Virus record (IMG/VR): IMGVR_UViG_3300032304_001022
Location: 1-35,304 of that record
Length of the DNA: 35,304 nucleotides
Source: a virus
Direction: 5' to 3' (one strand)
In this document: positions 9,388-35,302 of the stretch, piece by piece
Numbering within the stretch: the stretch's first letter is position 1
Layout of the letters: every line of letters starts with the position of its first letter
The notes under the pieces: generated by a model
Told to the model about the DNA's origin: nothing
Database searches by the model: none
What the model saw: the letters and a program-made list of their open reading frames with translations, nothing else
Position numbers and translations under genes: made by a program

Positions 9388-10470
9388 TTAAATTCTTATA
9401 GGTTCAGCATCTTCTAATAAGAAATACATTGCTTCGTTACCCCAACCTTTACCTTGTGCAGGTTGTTCTTCAAATGTTACCCATAAAGTAGCACCATCTT
9501 CTTTATTATAAGTTAATGTTTTAGTTAATGCATCGTATTTAGTTTCATTACCTGCTACAATAGTTATTTTATCATCTACGAGAGAATTAAACACTATTGT
9601 TGCTGATGAACCATATACATAATCGTTAACTATACCATCGTATAATCTCCAACGTACTACGTGACCAGGATATTGTTTATTATAACTAGTAATCTTACCA
9701 GTAGGTCTAGTTACTTGTGTATCTATACCATCATAATAAACTTTAGCATCTGCAAGAATAGAACCATCTTCATTCATTGTAAATACAGCTTCAATAGAAG
9801 TATTACAAATTTTATTTAATGGTAATTGAGCTTTTGGAACTATTAAGAAAGTAGTTCTCATATCATATTTCAATTCGTCTTTAGTTTTACCCATTGCTGA
9901 TAATATATCATATAATGCAATCTTAGGATAACTAACAATTGGTTTACTTAATGATGTTCTAGTTTTAATAAACTCTCTACGAACAACAGTAACTAAAGGA
10001 TTTTCACCTAATGTTGGTTCTGGATTACCTTTTGTATCAGATGATAAACCTAAATCAATTACTTTATCAAAGATATAAGTACCATCTAATGTTTCAGTAA
10101 TAGAACTATTAATACCTGTGTACCAATATGTATTACCAGTAAATGGGCCTATTTCAATTGTAGAAAAGAATTTATCTCTACCAAATATTACTTCATCTTC
10201 AGATTCTAGTTTAACTTCTACGTTTCTTGAATGTAATTCCCAATCAAGCATATTTAAAGCATATGTATCAAATGCACTTTTAGATTCTTCAATCTTAAAT
10301 GTATCAATTACTTTTGGTACTGATTTCCCATTGATTCTAGTCATTTGAGTATAATCATGTACTCTTTCTTGTATTAATACCCTACTAGTTCTAGTAGATA
10401 TAATACCATCAAATTTACCAAATGAATCTGGCAATCTTAAATTTCTTAGTGTTTTTTGTAAATTTTCCAT
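9388..10470 (-). CDS. Unrecognised probable structural protein, 360 residues
   Basis: I do not recognise this protein. It is soluble, with a helical N-terminus (about 1-60) and a mainly beta C-terminal two thirds. The last 130 residues, with short beta-type segments such as TSIEAVFTMNEDGSILADAK and TIVFNSLVDDKITIVAG, look like an immunoglobulin- or carbohydrate-binding-type fold, common in phage decoration and fibre proteins. It sits between the lysis cassette and the terminator at 9314-9369, so it is the last gene of its operon. A virion or receptor-contact role is possible but inferred only from composition and position. Confidence 0.6.
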   Translation of the reverse strand: MENLQKTLRNLRLPDSFGKFDGIISTRTSRVLIQERVHDYTQMTRINGKSVPKVIDTFKIEESKSAFDTYALNMLDWELHSRNVEVKLESEDEVIFGRDKFFSTIEIGPFTGNTYWYTGINSSITETLDGTYIFDKVIDLGLSSDTKGNPEPTLGENPLVTVVRREFIKTRTSLSKPIVSYPKIALYDILSAMGKTKDELKYDMRTTFLIVPKAQLPLNKICNTSIEAVFTMNEDGSILADAKVYYDGIDTQVTRPTGKITSYNKQYPGHVVRWRLYDGIVNDYVYGSSATIVFNSLVDDKITIVAGNETKYDALTKTLTYNKEDGATLWVTFEEQPAQGKGWGNEAMYFLLEDAEPIRI

Positions 10471-10471
10471 T

Positions 10472-10963
10472 TTATATTATTGTTATTAAATAAATTACTC
10501 CTCCGATTACAACAATTACTGCTCCTTCTATAATAGCTACATATTTCCAAAACTTTTTCTTTGTTTCAATTCTATCGTTTACTTTTTGTAAACCTTCAAC
10601 ATCCTCATTTAGTTTTTTAATTTCGGATTTTTTAGCTGCTATAGTATCATTCTTAGCAAGTAATTCTTTATCGTATCCCTTTACTACTTTATTAAATGCT
10701 CTATCTGCACTATCTAAAGAGTAAGTAAGTTGTTCAAGAGTTAGGTTACAATCTACAACTTCTAAAAACATTTTGTCTAAATTAACTTCGTATAGTTCGT
10801 TATATTTAAAAACTTCCAGAACTTTTTCTTCTTGATTTTGATTCAAGAATATCCCAGTATCTCCTTGGAATACTATCCTTAGAATTGAGGAGGATTGTCC
10901 AAAGGCTATCACGCTCAACAGCATTAAGGTTAGGGATATTGTTAATTTCTTTAACTTTGTCAT
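10472..10963 (-). CDS. Spanin-like secreted coiled-coil protein with C-terminal membrane anchor
   Basis: A 163-residue protein. Residues 1-23 form a signal peptide ending in AFGQ, a common Bacteroidota signal peptidase I context. A coiled coil spans about 95-137. Residues 141-163 are a transmembrane helix. The gene starts inside the preceding gene in another frame (158-base overlap), the arrangement of lambda Rz/Rz1. Spanins disrupt the outer membrane in the last lysis step. The usual outer-membrane spanin is a lipoprotein, but no Cys lies at the cleavage site, so this differs from both Rz1 and the single-gene u-spanin. The strong signal peptide supports the start chosen. A non-spanin periplasmic coiled-coil protein remains possible. 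Confidence 0.6.
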   Translation of the reverse strand: MTKLKKLTISLTLMLLSVIAFGQSSSILRIVFQGDTGIFLNQNQEEKVLEVFKYNELYEVNLDKMFLEVVDCNLTLEQLTYSLDSADRAFNKVVKGYDKELLAKNDTIAAKKSEIKKLNEDVEGLQKVNDRIETKKKFWKYVAIIEGAVIVVIGGVIYLITII

Positions 10964-29715: not shown

Positions 29716-29956
29716 AATCTTTTGTAATTTTACTTTTTGGAAAACCTAAATCTAACAATGAATCATATCCATCTTCTGAAGTAGCAATTGCTAAGAACTT
29801 AATCTTTAAATCTTTAATCTCAAAGTAAGAAGTAAACATATTTGTTATATCTACATACTCACCTGCTAGATCTAATAGACCTAAAATCTTATAATTACTA
29901 TTTGAGTTGTGTGATTTATAATCATCTAAAATCACATCTATAATATCATTTTTCAT
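29702..29956 (-). CDS. First gene of the leftward operon, unrecognised 84-residue protein
   Basis: A small acidic protein with segments YKILGLLDLAGEYVDITNMF and LKIKFLAIATSEDGYDSLLD, probably alpha/beta. It is the first gene behind the promoter at 29977-30008; the -7 box ends about 20 bases before its ATG. It overlaps the next gene by 14 bases. No family is recognised. Confidence 0.55.
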   Translation of the reverse strand: MKNDIIDVILDDYKSHNSNSNYKILGLLDLAGEYVDITNMFTSYFEIKDLKIKFLAIATSEDGYDSLLDLGFPKSKITKDYVED

Positions 29957-30482: not shown

Positions 30483-31043
30483 ATGAAAGAGCTTATCAAA
30501 AATTCTGAAATCAAAAGCAAATTTGCTGACAAATTGTTGACTCACAATGTATTTCTTGCTGAGAAGCAAGATTACACCAACAAAGAAGGTGAGAAACGTG
30601 TTCACTTAGTCTTCGCACAAGGTGTTAAAAATAACCTTGAGGTATTTGGTTACAACCTCAAAGGTAACATTCGTAGATTTGTTGCTTGGTCAGTACCATT
30701 GGAGTTTGCTAACAAATTCACTGTAGGTGAAACATATTCTCAATTCCATTTGAGATTGCAACAGGTTGCTTGTAATCCAGCAAGTCCAGCTAGTTTCATG
30801 TTGAACCAGAACAATGAACTACGTGAACCATTATTGGTTAATGACACTTATCGCAAAGATGAAAAAGGTAATCCAATTTACCAGAACATCGTTTGGATTG
30901 ATAAACGTGTTGATGCTAATGTTGAGGATACTCGTATCACAACGTATCAACCAATGTCAAAAACTGAGTTTGAAACCTACAAGGCTAACATCGGCAAAAA
31001 AGTCACTGTTACAGAAGGTCAGAAAGCTGAGCTAGTATCATAA
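30483..31043 (+). CDS. Probable abundant early protein, unrecognised, 186 residues
   Basis: A soluble mixed alpha/beta protein; recognisable stretches are VFGYNLKGNIRRFVAWSVPL (about 53-72) and FHLRLQQVACNPASPASFML (about 88-107). I know no function. The DNA is clearly less AT-biased than the small genes to its right and resembles the capsid gene in codon choice, so high expression is likely. It has its own structured leader and a strong terminator (31057-31100), making it a single-gene unit. A nucleic-acid-binding role such as a single-strand-binding OB fold is conceivable but not shown. Confidence 0.7.
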   Translation: MKELIKNSEIKSKFADKLLTHNVFLAEKQDYTNKEGEKRVHLVFAQGVKNNLEVFGYNLKGNIRRFVAWSVPLEFANKFTVGETYSQFHLRLQQVACNPASPASFMLNQNNELREPLLVNDTYRKDEKGNPIYQNIVWIDKRVDANVEDTRITTYQPMSKTEFETYKANIGKKVTVTEGQKAELVS

Positions 31044-31056
31044 ACTAGTATAATTA

Positions 31057-31100
31057 ACGTACACGAGATAGCAATAATCGTTATCTTGTGTGCGTTTCTT
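31057..31100 (+). terminator. Strong terminator after the 186-residue gene
   Basis: Bases 31057-31070 pair with 31082-31095 over 14 bp, with two G-U pairs and an 11-base loop, followed by TTTCTT. It lies 14 bases after the stop codon. The helix is the longest simple hairpin in the window. Confidence 0.8.
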
Positions 31101-31149
31101 ACATCATATCTGTTCAAATACTATCAAATTTTAACAAATACTATGAATT

Positions 31150-31392
31150 ATGCATAAAATTCAAATAGAAAAATGCACCAATTATAAAATTGATTGGAAT
31201 AAAAATCAATATGTGCAACATATAGATAAACCAGATCTTATTGTTAATTATCTAGGAGAACATGATGATATGTGGTTTAAAGGTTATGTACATCCTTGTG
31301 ATTTATATCCTTTAGGAAAATGTTCTAAATTTTATAAACCTGAATTTAAACGATTCACTGGTAAAGCAACATTAATCATTGAAAATACATAA
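31150..31392 (+). CDS. Small protein, paralog of the gene at 32862-33116
   Basis: An 80-residue protein with DW then VQ in the first third and the core GEHDDMWFKGYVHPCDLYPLG (about 36-56, kept here as GEH-D-F-GY-PC-YP-G). The 84-residue product at 32862-33116 shares this core in the same order and spacing. The single Cys in PC and the His in GEH are conserved in both, possible metal or redox residues. No outside family is recognised. It starts the gene group upstream of the first RNA-like stretch. Confidence 0.6.
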   Translation: MHKIQIEKCTNYKIDWNKNQYVQHIDKPDLIVNYLGEHDDMWFKGYVHPCDLYPLGKCSKFYKPEFKRFTGKATLIIENT

Positions 31393-31396
31393 CACT

Positions 31397-31684
31397 ATGA
31401 TTATCAACATAGAAGAAAAAAAAGAAAAAACATACAAACCAGGAGATTGGTTCTTGTATGATAATAAACAGCTATATGTTTTAACTGAAACAGGTAACAA
31501 AAGTGTAACATTAATAGGAGTTACTAAAAATCACGCTCATCAAAGTTTTGCATCAAAAGAAGTAAATGACATAAATAATATCATTAAAAGTGAATTAGAT
31601 TGTTTATCCCTTTATACTGATAAATCAAAATGGGAACATGTAGATGTAACAATTAATGTTGCAAGAAGCCATTCAATATTATAA
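31397..31684 (+). CDS. Unrecognised 95-residue protein
   Basis: I place the start at the ATG at 31397 (MIINIEEKKEKTYKPGDWFL), five bases after the previous stop, rather than at an in-frame TTG at 31379 that would overlap it. The N-terminal YKPGDWFLYDNKQLYVLTET looks like a small beta domain. The rest is mixed. No family is recognised. The stop is directly followed by the first RNA-like stretch. Confidence 0.58.
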   Translation: MIINIEEKKEKTYKPGDWFLYDNKQLYVLTETGNKSVTLIGVTKNHAHQSFASKEVNDINNIIKSELDCLSLYTDKSKWEHVDVTINVARSHSIL

Positions 31685-31694
31685 AAAACTCAAA

Positions 31695-31702
31695 TAACTT
31701 TG
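31695..31702 (+). promoter_or_regulatory. Possible -7 box (TAACTTTG) in front of RNA-like stretch A
   Basis: TAACTTTG matches TAnnTTTG and lies where stretch A begins, so an RNA could start near 31709, just before its first helix at 31716. No TTGAC-type -35 is present at the expected distance, so chance is quite possible. Confidence 0.3.
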
Positions 31703-31985
31703 CAAGTTGTTGAGCACACCTAGTTCTTTGAATAATGTGAAGCGCATGAGATAATATCAATAGTGGTAAGCAACAAAGTGTTCAAAGTTTAAGGTGTAAA
31801 ACACAATGGACTCCTACTGGATCGATGGGTGATACCAAAGATTTACAGGAAAAAAGAGGGTTAGTTGAACATAATTTAATCATACGATGAGTATGAATTA
31901 TGGAATACGAATCTACTAAGGTGGGATCTTAGTACCCAATGAAGGTAATCAGACCTTTGATGTCAAGTAAAACCATCCTTGATTA
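31703..31985 (+). ncRNA. Structured RNA A (novel-looking), about 280 bases
   Basis: The 364 bases between genes (31685-32048) have no credible reading frame; stops of all three types are dense. Helices visible: ACACCT/AGGTGT (31716-31721 with 31792-31797) continuing, across a 4x4 loop, as CTTTGAA/TTCAAAG (31726-31732 with 31781-31787). Further: TGGATC/GAT-a-CCA (31818-31837); CATAATT/AATTATG stacked on CATAC/GTATG (31870-31902, 12 bp with a TAAT bulge); TACTAAG/CTTAGTA (31914-31934); AAGGT/ACCTT (31942-31957); TCAAG/CTTGA (31963-31982). Bases 31986-32048 are A-rich and unstructured. Class unknown; the strand follows the flanking genes. Confidence 0.6.
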
Positions 31986-32048
31986 GCTATAAACAAAACA
32001 ATAACAATAACTAAAAGCCTCTGATATACAGGTAGTATATTAAACAAA

Positions 32049-32234
32049 ATGGAAAGAATTGTAAAAGTTTTTTTGGTAAATAAGTTAAGTCTTGATACTT
32101 GTTTACAAGATCCTACTGAAGAACAGTTTTTAGATTATGTTGAAAAACTAGAAAGCTGGGATTGGATTTTTGTATCAACAGCAACAGGAGAAGTATTTCA
32201 TTTACGTGACTATATTTTAAATATGGTAGAATAA
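32049..32234 (+). CDS. Small 61-residue protein between RNA-like stretches
   Basis: An acidic, probably alpha/beta protein (MERIVKVFLVNKLSLDTCLQ, then an EEQFLDYVEKLESWDWIF segment). The composition is that of a real soluble protein, and the A-rich bases before the ATG resemble the other starts here. It is enclosed by stretches A and B. No family is recognised. Confidence 0.55.
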   Translation: MERIVKVFLVNKLSLDTCLQDPTEEQFLDYVEKLESWDWIFVSTATGEVFHLRDYILNMVE

Positions 32235-32238
32235 TAAT

Positions 32239-32824
32239 CTTTTAGTTACCCAATACCCAGTAATGGTGAGGGTGACTTAATTAATTAAAAGTGCAATTAA
32301 TGGTAGGCATACTATTAATGGAATTGACAGAAATATAGGGTTCTACAGAAAGACCTATATTGTATAACAAAGCTATGGTGGCTAAATAGAACTACAAATG
32401 TGTTTTATTTATTCTCGTGAGAGATTTTGTTAGTAGAATAGAAAATAATACAAATGGATTTTGTGTAATTCAACATGGACGTAGATAAGCTAAGCTGAAG
32501 CTACAATAATAGGTGTGATAATAATGCCTGATCCTAAATATATTTGAGACTAAAAAGACTCTCAGTTACAATGTAATAGTAATATTAATATTATGAGTAA
32601 ACTTACCAAGTATATATTATGTGTTGTCTTATCTAAGGTAGTGATACCAAAAACTATTCTTACAGGTAATCCATAATCCTGTATTCCAAGCACTTTTAAT
32701 TAATTATAATGTAATGCATCATAACTCACTTCCCAAGGGTGAGCAGTTGTAATAGAATAGTAAGTCCATTAATTTGGTGATACACCAGTAGTTAAGAAAC
32801 TATGTAACTATTACAACTAAGTGC
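32239..32824 (+). ncRNA. Structured RNA B (novel-looking), up to about 590 bases
   Basis: No protein gene fits in 32235-32861. Helices: CTTTTA/TAAAAG (32239-32244, 32286-32291) enclosing GTTACCC/GGGTGAC (32245-32251, 32270-32276); a 10-bp hairpin with GGCA loop (32296-32319); ATATAGG/CCTATAT (32333-32360); GGTA-GTGA-TACC (32637-32648); TACAGG/CCTGTA (32661-32683). The 3' domain is most convincing: GCACTT/AAGTGC (32690-32695, 32819-32824) encloses CTCACTT/GGGTGAG (32725-32743) and an 11-bp helix (32745-32755 with 32808-32818) whose interior has TGGTG-ATA-CACCA (32775-32787). The 3' strands of the two long helices are adjacent, as in a coaxial stack. It could be two RNAs; 32830-32861 is A-rich leader. 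Confidence 0.6.
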
Positions 32825-32861
32825 AGAGGGTATTAAATAACAATAATCAAAACTAATAATA

Positions 32862-33116
32862 ATGAGAAAAGTAGAAATTGTAAAAGTAACTAAAATTAAA
32901 CTTCCTGATTGGAGTAAAAAAAATTGGGTGCAAAATTTTGAAGATCGAACAGCAATTATTGCAACAACTGGTGAACATAAAGATAATGGATTTTCTGGTT
33001 ATTGTTTACCTTGTGAAGCTTATCCAAAAGGTGAATTTTTTAATAATTGGCCTAAAAAAAAATTCATATTATTAGAAGATGATATTCCATTTGTAATTAG
33101 TAACAAAGAAAAATAA
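32862..33116 (+). CDS. Small protein, paralog of the gene at 31150-31392
   Basis: An 84-residue protein sharing with its paralog the order DW - VQ - GEH - D - F - GY - PC - YP - G. Its core is GEHKDNGFSGYCLPCEAYPKG in the same spacing, with an extra Cys in GYC. The C-terminus is Lys-rich. Each paralog lies upstream of an RNA-like stretch (A via the 95-residue gene, C directly), suggesting a duplicated module. No family or function is recognised. Confidence 0.6.
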   Translation: MRKVEIVKVTKIKLPDWSKKNWVQNFEDRTAIIATTGEHKDNGFSGYCLPCEAYPKGEFFNNWPKKKFILLEDDIPFVISNKEK

Positions 33117-33372
33117 AATAACATTGTAAATTACAAAGAAATATAGACTCGATAAGGGAGATACATAAGAAACCATGTTGTGATTTAGTAGAAATGTTTG
33201 AAATATAACTATGCTAAAAGAGACTGAACTTATCTAATTTACAATAAAAATATAGGTTTGATATTTACCTATGTGTTATGGTAGAAGATTTGTATAATGT
33301 GAGAAATCCTATATACAACTTAAAGAAGTTACCTAATTCACATAAAAAGTTGTAGTAATAGTGTAAACATGG

Positions 33373-33407
33373 ATAAGTGTTTAAGTTTAAAAGACTCCAT
33401 CTACTAC
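33373..33407 (+). repeat. Imperfect direct repeat inside RNA C, copy 1
   Basis: This stretch and 33670-33706 share AAGyGTTTAAGTTTrAA, then AAGACT and, a few bases on, TACTAC, with two extra bases in copy 2. A weaker relative occurs in RNA A at about 31776-31818 (GTGTTCAAAGTTTAA, later GACTCCTACT). The copies fall in different domains, so they may be protein-binding or long-range pairing elements. Confidence 0.45.
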
Positions 33408-33669
33408 TAGAAATTGTGTTGTTTCTACTTGAGAAATAGAAATATCTTAAACCATACGTTGCAACCGTAGCAAGACCAAATAAAGGTGAGAATCTTGTGC
33501 AAATGGGTAACGTAGCCGAAGCTGTTGAAAAACAGGTTACAGAGTCTGTAGGCGAGACCTTTACAACACAAATATCATTCTCAAATATAATGTTTATAGA
33601 GGCCCGTGTCAAAGCTCGGTGTATATGGTGTAGCAGAAGCACACTATAAGCATTATATAATGTTTTGTA

Positions 33670-33706
33670 AGAAGCGTTTAAGTTTGAAACAAGACTATAA
33701 TACTAC
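33670..33706 (+). repeat. Imperfect direct repeat inside RNA C, copy 2
   Basis: This copy lies in the loop closed by the 12-bp helix (33659-33670 with 33733-33744). It contains GTTT-AAGTTTG-AAAC, itself able to form a 4-bp hairpin, followed by AAGACTATAATACTAC, whose TATAATAC pairs with 33720-33727. See copy 1 at 33373-33407. Confidence 0.45.
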
Positions 33707-33826
33707 CACAGACTGAAATGTATTATATGAGATTACAAAACATTAAAATATTCTATACCAATAATATACCTTAATATTAATCAAGTATTTGGTAGAAGAT
33801 ATGAATTATTAATAATTTAATTAGAA

Positions 33827-33949
33827 ATGACAAAAGATAAAATAAAATATTTTATTAATTTAAATGGTAATAAGATTTATTTTTCTACTGTTTCACTATC
33901 TGAGGTTAATAATCTTAAACCAAAATTTATAAAACCACTTTACAAATGA
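33827..33949 (+). CDS. Small 40-residue protein after RNA C
   Basis: Reading from ATG at 33827 gives MTKDKIKYFINLNGNKIYFS and continues to a TGA at 33947-33949 that overlaps the next ATG (ATGA). Basic, beta-type, with a TVSLSEVNNLKPKFIKPLYK end. The stop/start overlap supports a real gene. No family is recognised. Confidence 0.5.
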   Translation: MTKDKIKYFINLNGNKIYFSTVSLSEVNNLKPKFIKPLYK

Positions 33950-34260
33950 GTAAAATACCAACAGCAGAAGAGTTTTTTGAAGAATGGTGTAATAAAAAAG
34001 GATATGTTTCAATTGATGAAGCAGATGATATAAATGAATGTATGATTGAATTTACTAAACTTCATGTAGAACTTGCATTGGAAGCTGCTTCTAAAAATTC
34101 TAAAGTACATCTCAAAACTTACTTTGGTGATATGGAAAACATGGTGGAGGAAAGTAAAGTTTTTTGGGGAAGTGACGATTTACTAAGTTGTTACTCTACT
34201 AGGGTTAAAGTCGATAAAGACTCAATCATCAATGCTTACCCACTAGATAATATCAAGTAA
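33946..34260 (+). CDS. Conserved small phage protein, 104 residues
   Basis: An acidic protein beginning MSKIPTAEEFFEEWCNKKGY, with a helix (MIEFTKLHVELALEAASKNS, about 43-62) and the end DSIINAYPLDNIK. Small proteins with PTAEEF near the start, a K-LHVE-A helix and a terminal SYPL-NIK are frequent in Bacteroidota phages and appear in the accessory early region; their function is not known to me. It overlaps its upstream neighbour as ATGA. Confidence 0.6.
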   Translation: MSKIPTAEEFFEEWCNKKGYVSIDEADDINECMIEFTKLHVELALEAASKNSKVHLKTYFGDMENMVEESKVFWGSDDLLSCYSTRVKVDKDSIINAYPLDNIK

Positions 34261-34261
34261 C

Positions 34262-34456
34262 ATGGAAAATCCTGAAAGAATTTTTATTATTCATGTTGGT
34301 GAAAATGGTGTAAAAGAATACCTTGCAGCATTTTTCAGAGAACTTGGTGTTGAAGAAAATGAAATACAACTAAAAGTAGAAGAACATTATCAATTCATGA
34401 TTGATAATCCTAATGTAAATAATATGTTCGGAATAAAAATTCATAATCATTTTTAA
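34262..34456 (+). CDS. Unrecognised 64-residue protein
   Basis: An acidic, probably alpha/beta protein with MENPERIFIIHVGENGVKEY at the start and a helix with LGVEENEIQLKVEEHYQFM. It follows the 104-residue gene by one base. No family is recognised. Confidence 0.55.
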   Translation: MENPERIFIIHVGENGVKEYLAAFFRELGVEENEIQLKVEEHYQFMIDNPNVNNMFGIKIHNHF

Positions 34457-34469
34457 AGAAAACAATAAA

Positions 34470-34700
34470 ATGAAATTAAAACTAATTTATAAACAAAGTA
34501 TTGTTTTTATATTACTACTATTTGTTTTCTCTAGTTGTGAAAATAATGAAGAAAAAATAACAACTGATATTGATTATAGTTTTGGATCAATTAAAGTTTT
34601 AGAAATAGATAGTTGTGAATACATAATTTATAATGGTGTTTACAAAAGTGGTATAGTTCATAAACATAATTGTAAGTTTTGTACTAAACGTGATAATTAA
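34470..34700 (+). CDS. Small lipoprotein
   Basis: A 76-residue protein with a signal peptide ending in a lipobox, VFSSC, with the lipidated Cys at about residue 23, followed by ENNEEK, an acidic start like the Bacteroidota surface-export signal. The mature part is about 54 residues and carries HKHNCKFC near its end, which could bind metal or form a disulfide. Small phage lipoproteins often protect the infected cell from superinfection; that role is a guess. The next gene encodes a membrane protein, so the two may act together at the envelope. Confidence 0.65.
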   Translation: MKLKLIYKQSIVFILLLFVFSSCENNEEKITTDIDYSFGSIKVLEIDSCEYIIYNGVYKSGIVHKHNCKFCTKRDN

Positions 34701-34706
34701 TTTAAT

Positions 34707-34877
34707 ATGAAAAAAGAAACATCATTTAAAATAATGGTTGCTTTTGTTTTATTACTTATACTTAATATTATATGGTTAGGTGCTACTGAATTAGGTTATT
34801 TAATATCAAAAATATTACTTTCTTTTGCTGTAGTTTTCTTTTTTATAAATGTATTTACTAAAGAAAATCGAATATGA
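34707..34877 (+). CDS. Small two-helix membrane protein, 56 residues
   Basis: The frame from ATG 34707 starts MKKETSFKIMVAFVLLLILN and runs to a TGA that overlaps the next ATG as ATGA (34874-34877). Two hydrophobic helices (about 8-26 and 30-49) are separated by a short polar turn. It lies between a lipoprotein and a phosphatase gene. Possible superinfection-exclusion or membrane-remodelling role; no motif. Confidence 0.55.
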   Translation: MKKETSFKIMVAFVLLLILNIIWLGATELGYLISKILLSFAVVFFFINVFTKENRI

Positions 34878-35302
34878 AAGTTTCACTTGATTTTGATGGT
34901 ACATTAAGTAGACATACTGTACAAGAATATGCTAAAGAATTGTTATTAAAAAATGTAGATGTATGGGTATGTACTAGTCGTGCTAAAAATCCTAAAATTA
35001 AAAAGGGTGGAATAATTTTAAATCCTAATGAAGATTTATATAAAGTTACTGACTTTTTAGGAATACATAGAGACAAAATAATATTTACTGAATCAAAACT
35101 AAAAGTAGATACATGGGAGTTTCAAAAAGAATCTTTTATATTTCATTTAGATGATGATTCTGTAGAAATTAAAGAAATGATTAATGAATCTATGGATTAT
35201 CCTAATTTTATAACAACACCAATATTATTTGATAAGAATTTCAAACAAAAATGTGAATCAATCTTAAAATTATATGAATCCAGAACAAAAAGAAGTAAAT
35301 AA
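34874..35302 (+). CDS. HAD-superfamily hydrolase (small phosphatase)
   Basis: A 142-residue protein with HAD motifs: DFDGT (6-10, nucleophile Asp6 and acid/base Asp8), VCTSR (32-36) for motif II, Lys residues near 63-75 for motif III, and HLDDDSVE (91-98) for motif IV. No cap domain is visible at this length, so it belongs to the minimal HAD phosphatases. Substrate might be a nucleotide or nucleic-acid 5' or 3' phosphate; unknown. The stop overlaps an ATG at 35302-35304, the likely start of the next gene, which runs out of the window. Confidence 0.8.
   Translation: MKVSLDFDGTLSRHTVQEYAKELLLKNVDVWVCTSRAKNPKIKKGGIILNPNEDLYKVTDFLGIHRDKIIFTESKLKVDTWEFQKESFIFHLDDDSVEIKEMINESMDYPNFITTPILFDKNFKQKCESILKLYESRTKRSK

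Follow-up and report, generated by a model that had tools for sequence, protein, structure and literature searches.

A gene-free stretch with two long 3' hairpins in the early region of a crAss-like phage, a putative orphan noncoding RNA

The locus and its gene layout

The window, that is, the whole 35,304-nt stretch of DNA analysed here, is a 35-kb fragment of a phage genome, in which the large terminase, the portal and the major head protein all have matches among head-and-packaging PHROGs. The relatives of the portal in GenBank are crAss-like phages, with an identity of at most 36%, and both observations uphold the crAss-like assignment made in the first-pass annotation. The late genes occupy the minus strand up to position 29956 and are followed by a divergent spacer of 526 nt and then by small plus-strand genes. 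Coding density is 98% up to 29956 and 62% in 30483–35302. The plus-strand part holds three gene-free stretches, designated A (31690–32048, +), B (32235–32861, +) and C (33117–33826, +). Stretch C, 710 nt long, lies between the ORFs 32862–33116 and 33827–33949 and shows neither the codon usage of the phage nor any Rfam, tRNA or protein match. The ORF directly 3' of it (33827–33949, +) encodes 40 aa, has a weak coding signal (z 1.6) and overlaps the next gene, 33946–34260. Stretch C abuts this ORF, and in the same way stretches A and B each extend to a start codon, that of 32049 and that of 32862, respectively.

Other features of the early region can be mentioned. Two of its small genes, 31150–31392 and 32862–33116, are paralogous (41% identity over 58 residues), the second of them directly preceding C, and family searches placed them in no known family. 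In addition, a very strong hairpin (31050–31097, ACACGAGATA...TATCTTGTGT, local z -6.6) is located right 3' of the gene 30483–31043, and is probably a transcript end or a processing site.

Coding potential and base composition

Stretch C is noncoding, as far as the tests reach. Scored for the phage's own codon usage, every frame of C is negative, compared with values of about 0 or more in the neighbouring genes, and the 3-base periodicity that is clear in nearly all accepted neighbouring genes appears in no frame of C. Alternative genetic codes, recoded ones being known from some crAss-like phages, opened no convincing frame either. The early description of C as gene-free is sustained, and this for both strands; a conserved protein frame, which would have contradicted that description, was searched for and not seen, none of the frames matching a protein relative. 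Even so, a short protein gene hidden in the G+C-rich middle of C has to be weighed, either as a 48-codon ORF at 33503–33649 (+), within the open frame 33443–33649, or as the antisense frame 33208–33642 (-). The antisense frame runs for 145 stop-free codons, longer than in any of 1000 dinucleotide shuffles, and the plus open frame has a codon z of 2.6 and overlaps the G+C-rich part. However, the former shows no coding signal and no relatives, and the latter lacks the codon usage of the phage and is the best pick among six frames. Codon scores are -0.23 to -0.38 bits per codon, compared with about 0 or more in accepted genes, and periodicity is little or none (phase p 0.05 at best). With protein relatives not found, a hidden gene is considered improbable.

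The base composition of C differs from that of the other spacers. The G+C content is 29% in C and in coding sequence, and 21% in the other spacers (18% without the divergent spacer), the difference between C and these spacers being significant (0.29 vs 0.21, p 5e-5). It is most marked in the middle of C (33456–33660, +), with 40% G+C vs 21% in the other spacers (Fisher p 1.2e-8), and C contains a 200-nt window that is G+C-richer than any in 500 shuffles of C. In AT-rich genomes, raised G+C in noncoding DNA is a known sign of RNA genes. The composition therefore suggests a constraint acting on C, although a decayed import would give the same picture. Indeed, C might be mostly unconstrained or decayed DNA, left behind by small genes that were lost or by an element that was transferred, with two surviving AT-rich inverted repeats and no functional RNA. 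Phage early regions turn over rapidly, conservation of C was found nowhere, and its whole-stretch folding z falls within the range of coding controls, all of which agrees with decay. On the other hand, a phage whose remaining sequence is 98% coding would rarely leave 1.7 kb of a 2.1-kb stretch unused, and neither a G+C content well above that of the other spacers nor two improbable stems would be expected; decay is thus regarded as unlikely.

Helices and folding energy

The helices named in the first-pass annotation do exist. They include a perfect 11-bp stem (33123–33133/33235–33245), a perfect 13-bp stem (33658–33670/33733–33745; 12 bp if 33658 pairs in the preceding hairpin) and the hairpin CTGTT-GAAA-AACAG at 33522–33535, and the two-hairpin junction closed by GCC/GGC is seen in the local minimum-energy fold. 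The 13-bp stem is the longest Watson-Crick stem of the whole window. When the count is limited to stems of 11 bp or more whose two arms fall within 150 nt, C has two, compared with 0.03 expected, and two such stems occurred in none of 300 dinucleotide shuffles; across the 35 kb there are four in total, one of them in B and two in C. Both long stems of C are AT-rich.

With respect to folding energy, C divides into a 3' module and the rest. Only two back-to-back hairpins, 33585–33658 and 33659–33745, clearly beat their shuffles. The first of them, hairpin III (33585–33658, +), has a 15-bp stem (33585–33599/33644–33658) with one G-U pair and small inner hairpins, and reaches a z of -2.5, with 3 of 200 shuffles folding as well. 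The second, hairpin II (33658–33745, +), is closed by the 13-bp stem and reaches a z of -3.1 for 33659–33745, a value equalled by 2 of 200 shuffles; within it, pairing of TATAATAC (33696–33703) with GTATTATA (33720–33727) is an alternative to the minimum-energy interior. The best reading is that this 3' module is genuinely folded. The segments of C outside it have z values of -0.08 to -0.87, and local 120-nt windows from 33120 to 33639 lie between +0.4 and -1.5. In the 5' domain (33123–33245, +), the 11-bp stem is followed by GATAAG (33151–33156) paired with CTTATC (33229–33234), which abuts it on the 3' strand; the length of the stem is beyond chance and the energy is not (z -0.66, with 44 of 200 shuffles folding as well). 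The possible core (33481–33563, +) comprises TAAAGGT 33481–33487/ACCTTTA 33557–33563, GTAAC 33507–33511/GTTAC 33536–33540 and the GNRA hairpin, with the GCC/GGC junction as an alternative; its helices are present, although the segment with the GNRA hairpin and the junction has a z of -0.08 and is matched by 94 of 200 shuffles. A loop-to-core pairing (33543–33549/33712–33718) was dropped, as 18% of shuffles match it. No terminator-like site, that is, a G+C-rich hairpin with a U run, was detected on either strand of C.

The whole of C has a z of -1.6 to -2.0, inside the range of coding controls from the same genome (+0.5 to -3.0 for sense strands). The proposal that the entire 620 to 710 nt form one multidomain fold is therefore not borne out, since several coding controls do equally well. 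The eight stacked helices on which it was built can be drawn on paper, with statistical support for two or three of them. Likewise, of the two nested sets that had been judged unlikely to arise by chance, the 3' one (folded here as 33659–33745) holds in energy and 33123–33245 in stem length alone, and the comparison with shuffled controls gives an energy excess in the 3' 160 nt (33585–33745) and none elsewhere in C. In A, B and C alike, the gain in folding over shuffled sequence is greater for the sense strand than for the antisense strand. Stretch B has the strongest fold of the three, far better than its shuffles (z -4.3 to -4.9), and A, with a G+C content of 0.33, has a z of -2.5 to -3.0; because of these values, B and A are better structured-RNA candidates than C.

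The position of the two significant hairpins at the 3' end of C also bears on another reading, in which C is a long untranslated leader acting solely within the mRNA, either as a cis-regulatory 5' region or as the 3' region of the preceding gene, with the hairpins controlling the stability or translation of the small ORFs from 33827 on. The direct abutment of C on the ORF at 33827, repeated at the 3' ends of A and B, fits such a role. Nevertheless, a phage leader of 710 nt would be long, the G+C enrichment is central and at a great distance from the start codon, and no riboswitch or cis-regulatory Rfam family is matched; this reading is possible and, on balance, doubtful.

Homologues and known RNA classes

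Judged from the sequences searched, C is an orphan, with conservation of its sequence seen nowhere among them. Terminase scans yielded 6 and then 46 related viral loci, the nearest being 65% identical in the terminase and only 4–5 kb long. The search covered 32 crAss-like records over their full length, the query being either C or the span from A to C, and fifteen records were fetched whole or largely; in these, neither C nor its core nor its 3' module had a match by blastn, nhmmer or single-sequence covariance models, and blastn of C against GenBank phages gave no homologue. Scans of viral contigs with exact and with gapped patterns returned matches solely in unrelated genes or unrelated sequence, and searches for close relatives through the neighbouring proteins and in bacterial genomes found none. 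An 11-mer common to A and B (GTGATACCAAA) has only chance matches elsewhere.

The Rfam covariance search of C gave nothing at the gathering threshold, nor at E<=10 with permissive filters, for GOLLD, ROOL, introns, riboswitches or any other class, in agreement with the view that C belongs to no known class. Neither ARAGORN nor Rfam identified C as a tRNA or tmRNA. A group I or group II intron was rejected, since no Rfam match appeared at E<=10 and the flanking ORFs are complete small genes. GOLLD and ROOL, with which C had been compared, are large phage-encoded noncoding RNAs of several hundred nt and of unknown function, and often, though not universally, sit by phage tRNA islands (PMC12286853). 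The likeness of C to them goes no further than size, phage origin and the lack of a reading frame; it matches neither in sequence nor in structure. Unlike these RNAs, C has no tRNA near it in the 35-kb window, which is a fragment of a genome. With no model match, no tRNAs nearby and most of its length folding no better than shuffles, C is very improbable as a large self-assembling structural RNA of this kind.

In T7, RNase III-type processing hairpins occur between early genes. Long hairpins between small early genes are likewise found in C, although these are rich in A and T, consist of several parts and take up a far larger region, and the processing of C is putative.

The region upstream of terL in related phages

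Although the sequence of C is not shared, its place is: related phages have in common a noncoding-rich region upstream of terL. When a gap was defined by the absence of ORFs of 45 codons, and two records were taken as circular, 13 relatives had 42 gene-free gaps measuring 250 nt or more, and 35 of these were found 3–19 kb upstream of terL, which is a per-kilobase enrichment of 22-fold; C itself lies 7–8 kb upstream of this gene. Some of the gaps have identifiable occupants. In the crAss-like record L049, a hatchet ribozyme and, next to it, a permuted tmRNA (827–916, -, and 991–1203, -) lie within a 698-nt gene-free gap, and in another relative a tRNA is found inside a 927-nt gap. A tmRNA (9491–9863, +) is also present upstream of terL in L085, with an RT-18 RNA (10637–10713, +) about 0.8 kb later. 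The tmRNA, permuted tmRNA and hatchet ribozyme of these relatives resemble C as noncoding occupants of the region; none of their models is matched by C. A further RNA, of 420–480 nt, is common to L024 (3161–3582, -) and L025 (1–480, -) with an E of 4e-26, and 13 of its predicted pairs are changed on both sides, as counted in these two sequences only. It lies upstream of an early gene, contains the invariant stretch ATAATACCCCCACTTAACATTGA, and has no Rfam match and no relative among GenBank phages. Like C, this RNA comes from a gene-free part of the region upstream of terL in a crAss-like phage, but it has no sequence similarity to C and is conserved in two phages, C in none. A 22-nt motif containing ACCCCC, common to the divergent spacer of the window and to L024/L025, had an E of about 15 and was not used. 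The other gaps of the relatives, like C, match nothing. The cultured phage crAss001 has a like layout, with a tRNA island and then, past the divergent boundary, early-gene gaps of 400–900 nt; gaps of crAss001 lie at 95965–96869, 99121–99522 and 101985–102619. As a separate observation, an insertion of about 330 residues that resembles an intein is present in the terminase gene of the relative L008 (9983–13198).

An unannotated conserved noncoding region of 500–900 nt was noticed directly or closely downstream of the TROVE (Ro60-like) gene of crAss001 (L133:11966–12870, -, equivalent to MH675552 95965–96869), and also in L134, L135, L136 and L137; it is matched in 25 GenBank crAss-like records, crAss001 included. 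It contains tRNA-like genes with inserts of 50–70 nt, called by ARAGORN as tRNA-Asn (70-nt insert) and tRNA-Leu (53-nt insert), and an Rfam tRNA match of 46.6 bits. A motif with TTACTTCAA at its end is present there in as many as four copies. This region looks like a set of phage-encoded, tRNA-mimicking Y RNAs for the phage Ro60. Because the TROVE gene of crAss001 is early, a role as a Ro60/Y-RNA partner was considered for C and rejected, no TROVE gene having been found in its clade: no TROVE/Ro60 gene was matched in the window, a fragment, or in 16 related records, the control genome being positive.

A broader proposal is that A, B and C represent a new class of large structured RNAs, for whose early production crAss-like phages set aside a noncoding-rich region upstream of terL; at present this seems quite unlikely.

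Interpretation

Several observations point to a noncoding RNA at C. The window is 98% coding elsewhere and has three gene-free stretches here, the G+C content of C is above that of the spacers, and the location is shared with RNA-bearing gaps of relatives. Against this, C has no homologue in the sequences searched and hence no covariation, most of its length, the 5' domain and the GNRA hairpin among it, folds at the level of shuffled sequence, its whole-stretch z is that of coding controls, and its long stems are AT-rich. The original proposal of an RNA of no known class is plausible in view of the noncoding composition, the raised G+C, the long stems, the genomic position and the absence of an Rfam match; the energy excess is confined to the 3' 160 nt. 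The fold and function of C are putative and the support for a functional RNA is indirect; most simply, C is likely an early RNA or a leader.

In crAss001, transcription of the early genes takes place within 10 minutes; for the related phage phi14:2, a similar operon is reportedly transcribed by a virion RNA polymerase (PMC8375218). The same paper describes strand-specific RNA-seq of a one-step crAss001 infection. If the phage of the window behaves like these two phages, C would be copied early, from the plus strand, together with the neighbouring small genes. The reading that we prefer, and to which we give about an even chance, is that C is an orphan plus-strand noncoding RNA segment made with the surrounding early genes, with two long 3' hairpins and a functional G+C-rich middle. 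In that case C would be a separate RNA and not a leader. The two long hairpins formed side by side by its 3' 160 nt would delimit the RNA or make it more stable, and would set C apart from the ORF at 33827; possibly they serve the processing or protection of an RNA whose end lies before 33827. The G+C-rich middle would carry the function of the RNA. As to mechanism, C would most likely be a trans-acting early RNA, which a cut at the 3' hairpins or close to them frees from the early transcript.

Significance

Many gut viromes are dominated by crAss-like phages, and their noncoding RNAs beyond tRNAs seem to have been little studied, since a search of the open literature on crAss-like phages and noncoding RNA gave nothing on the subject. 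The finding is modest, and C alone will be of little weight as long as neither a transcript nor a relative has turned up. The shared noncoding-rich region is of more use than C, because the gap-rich stretch upstream of terL provides a defined place in which to seek the RNAs that these phages may make in early infection.
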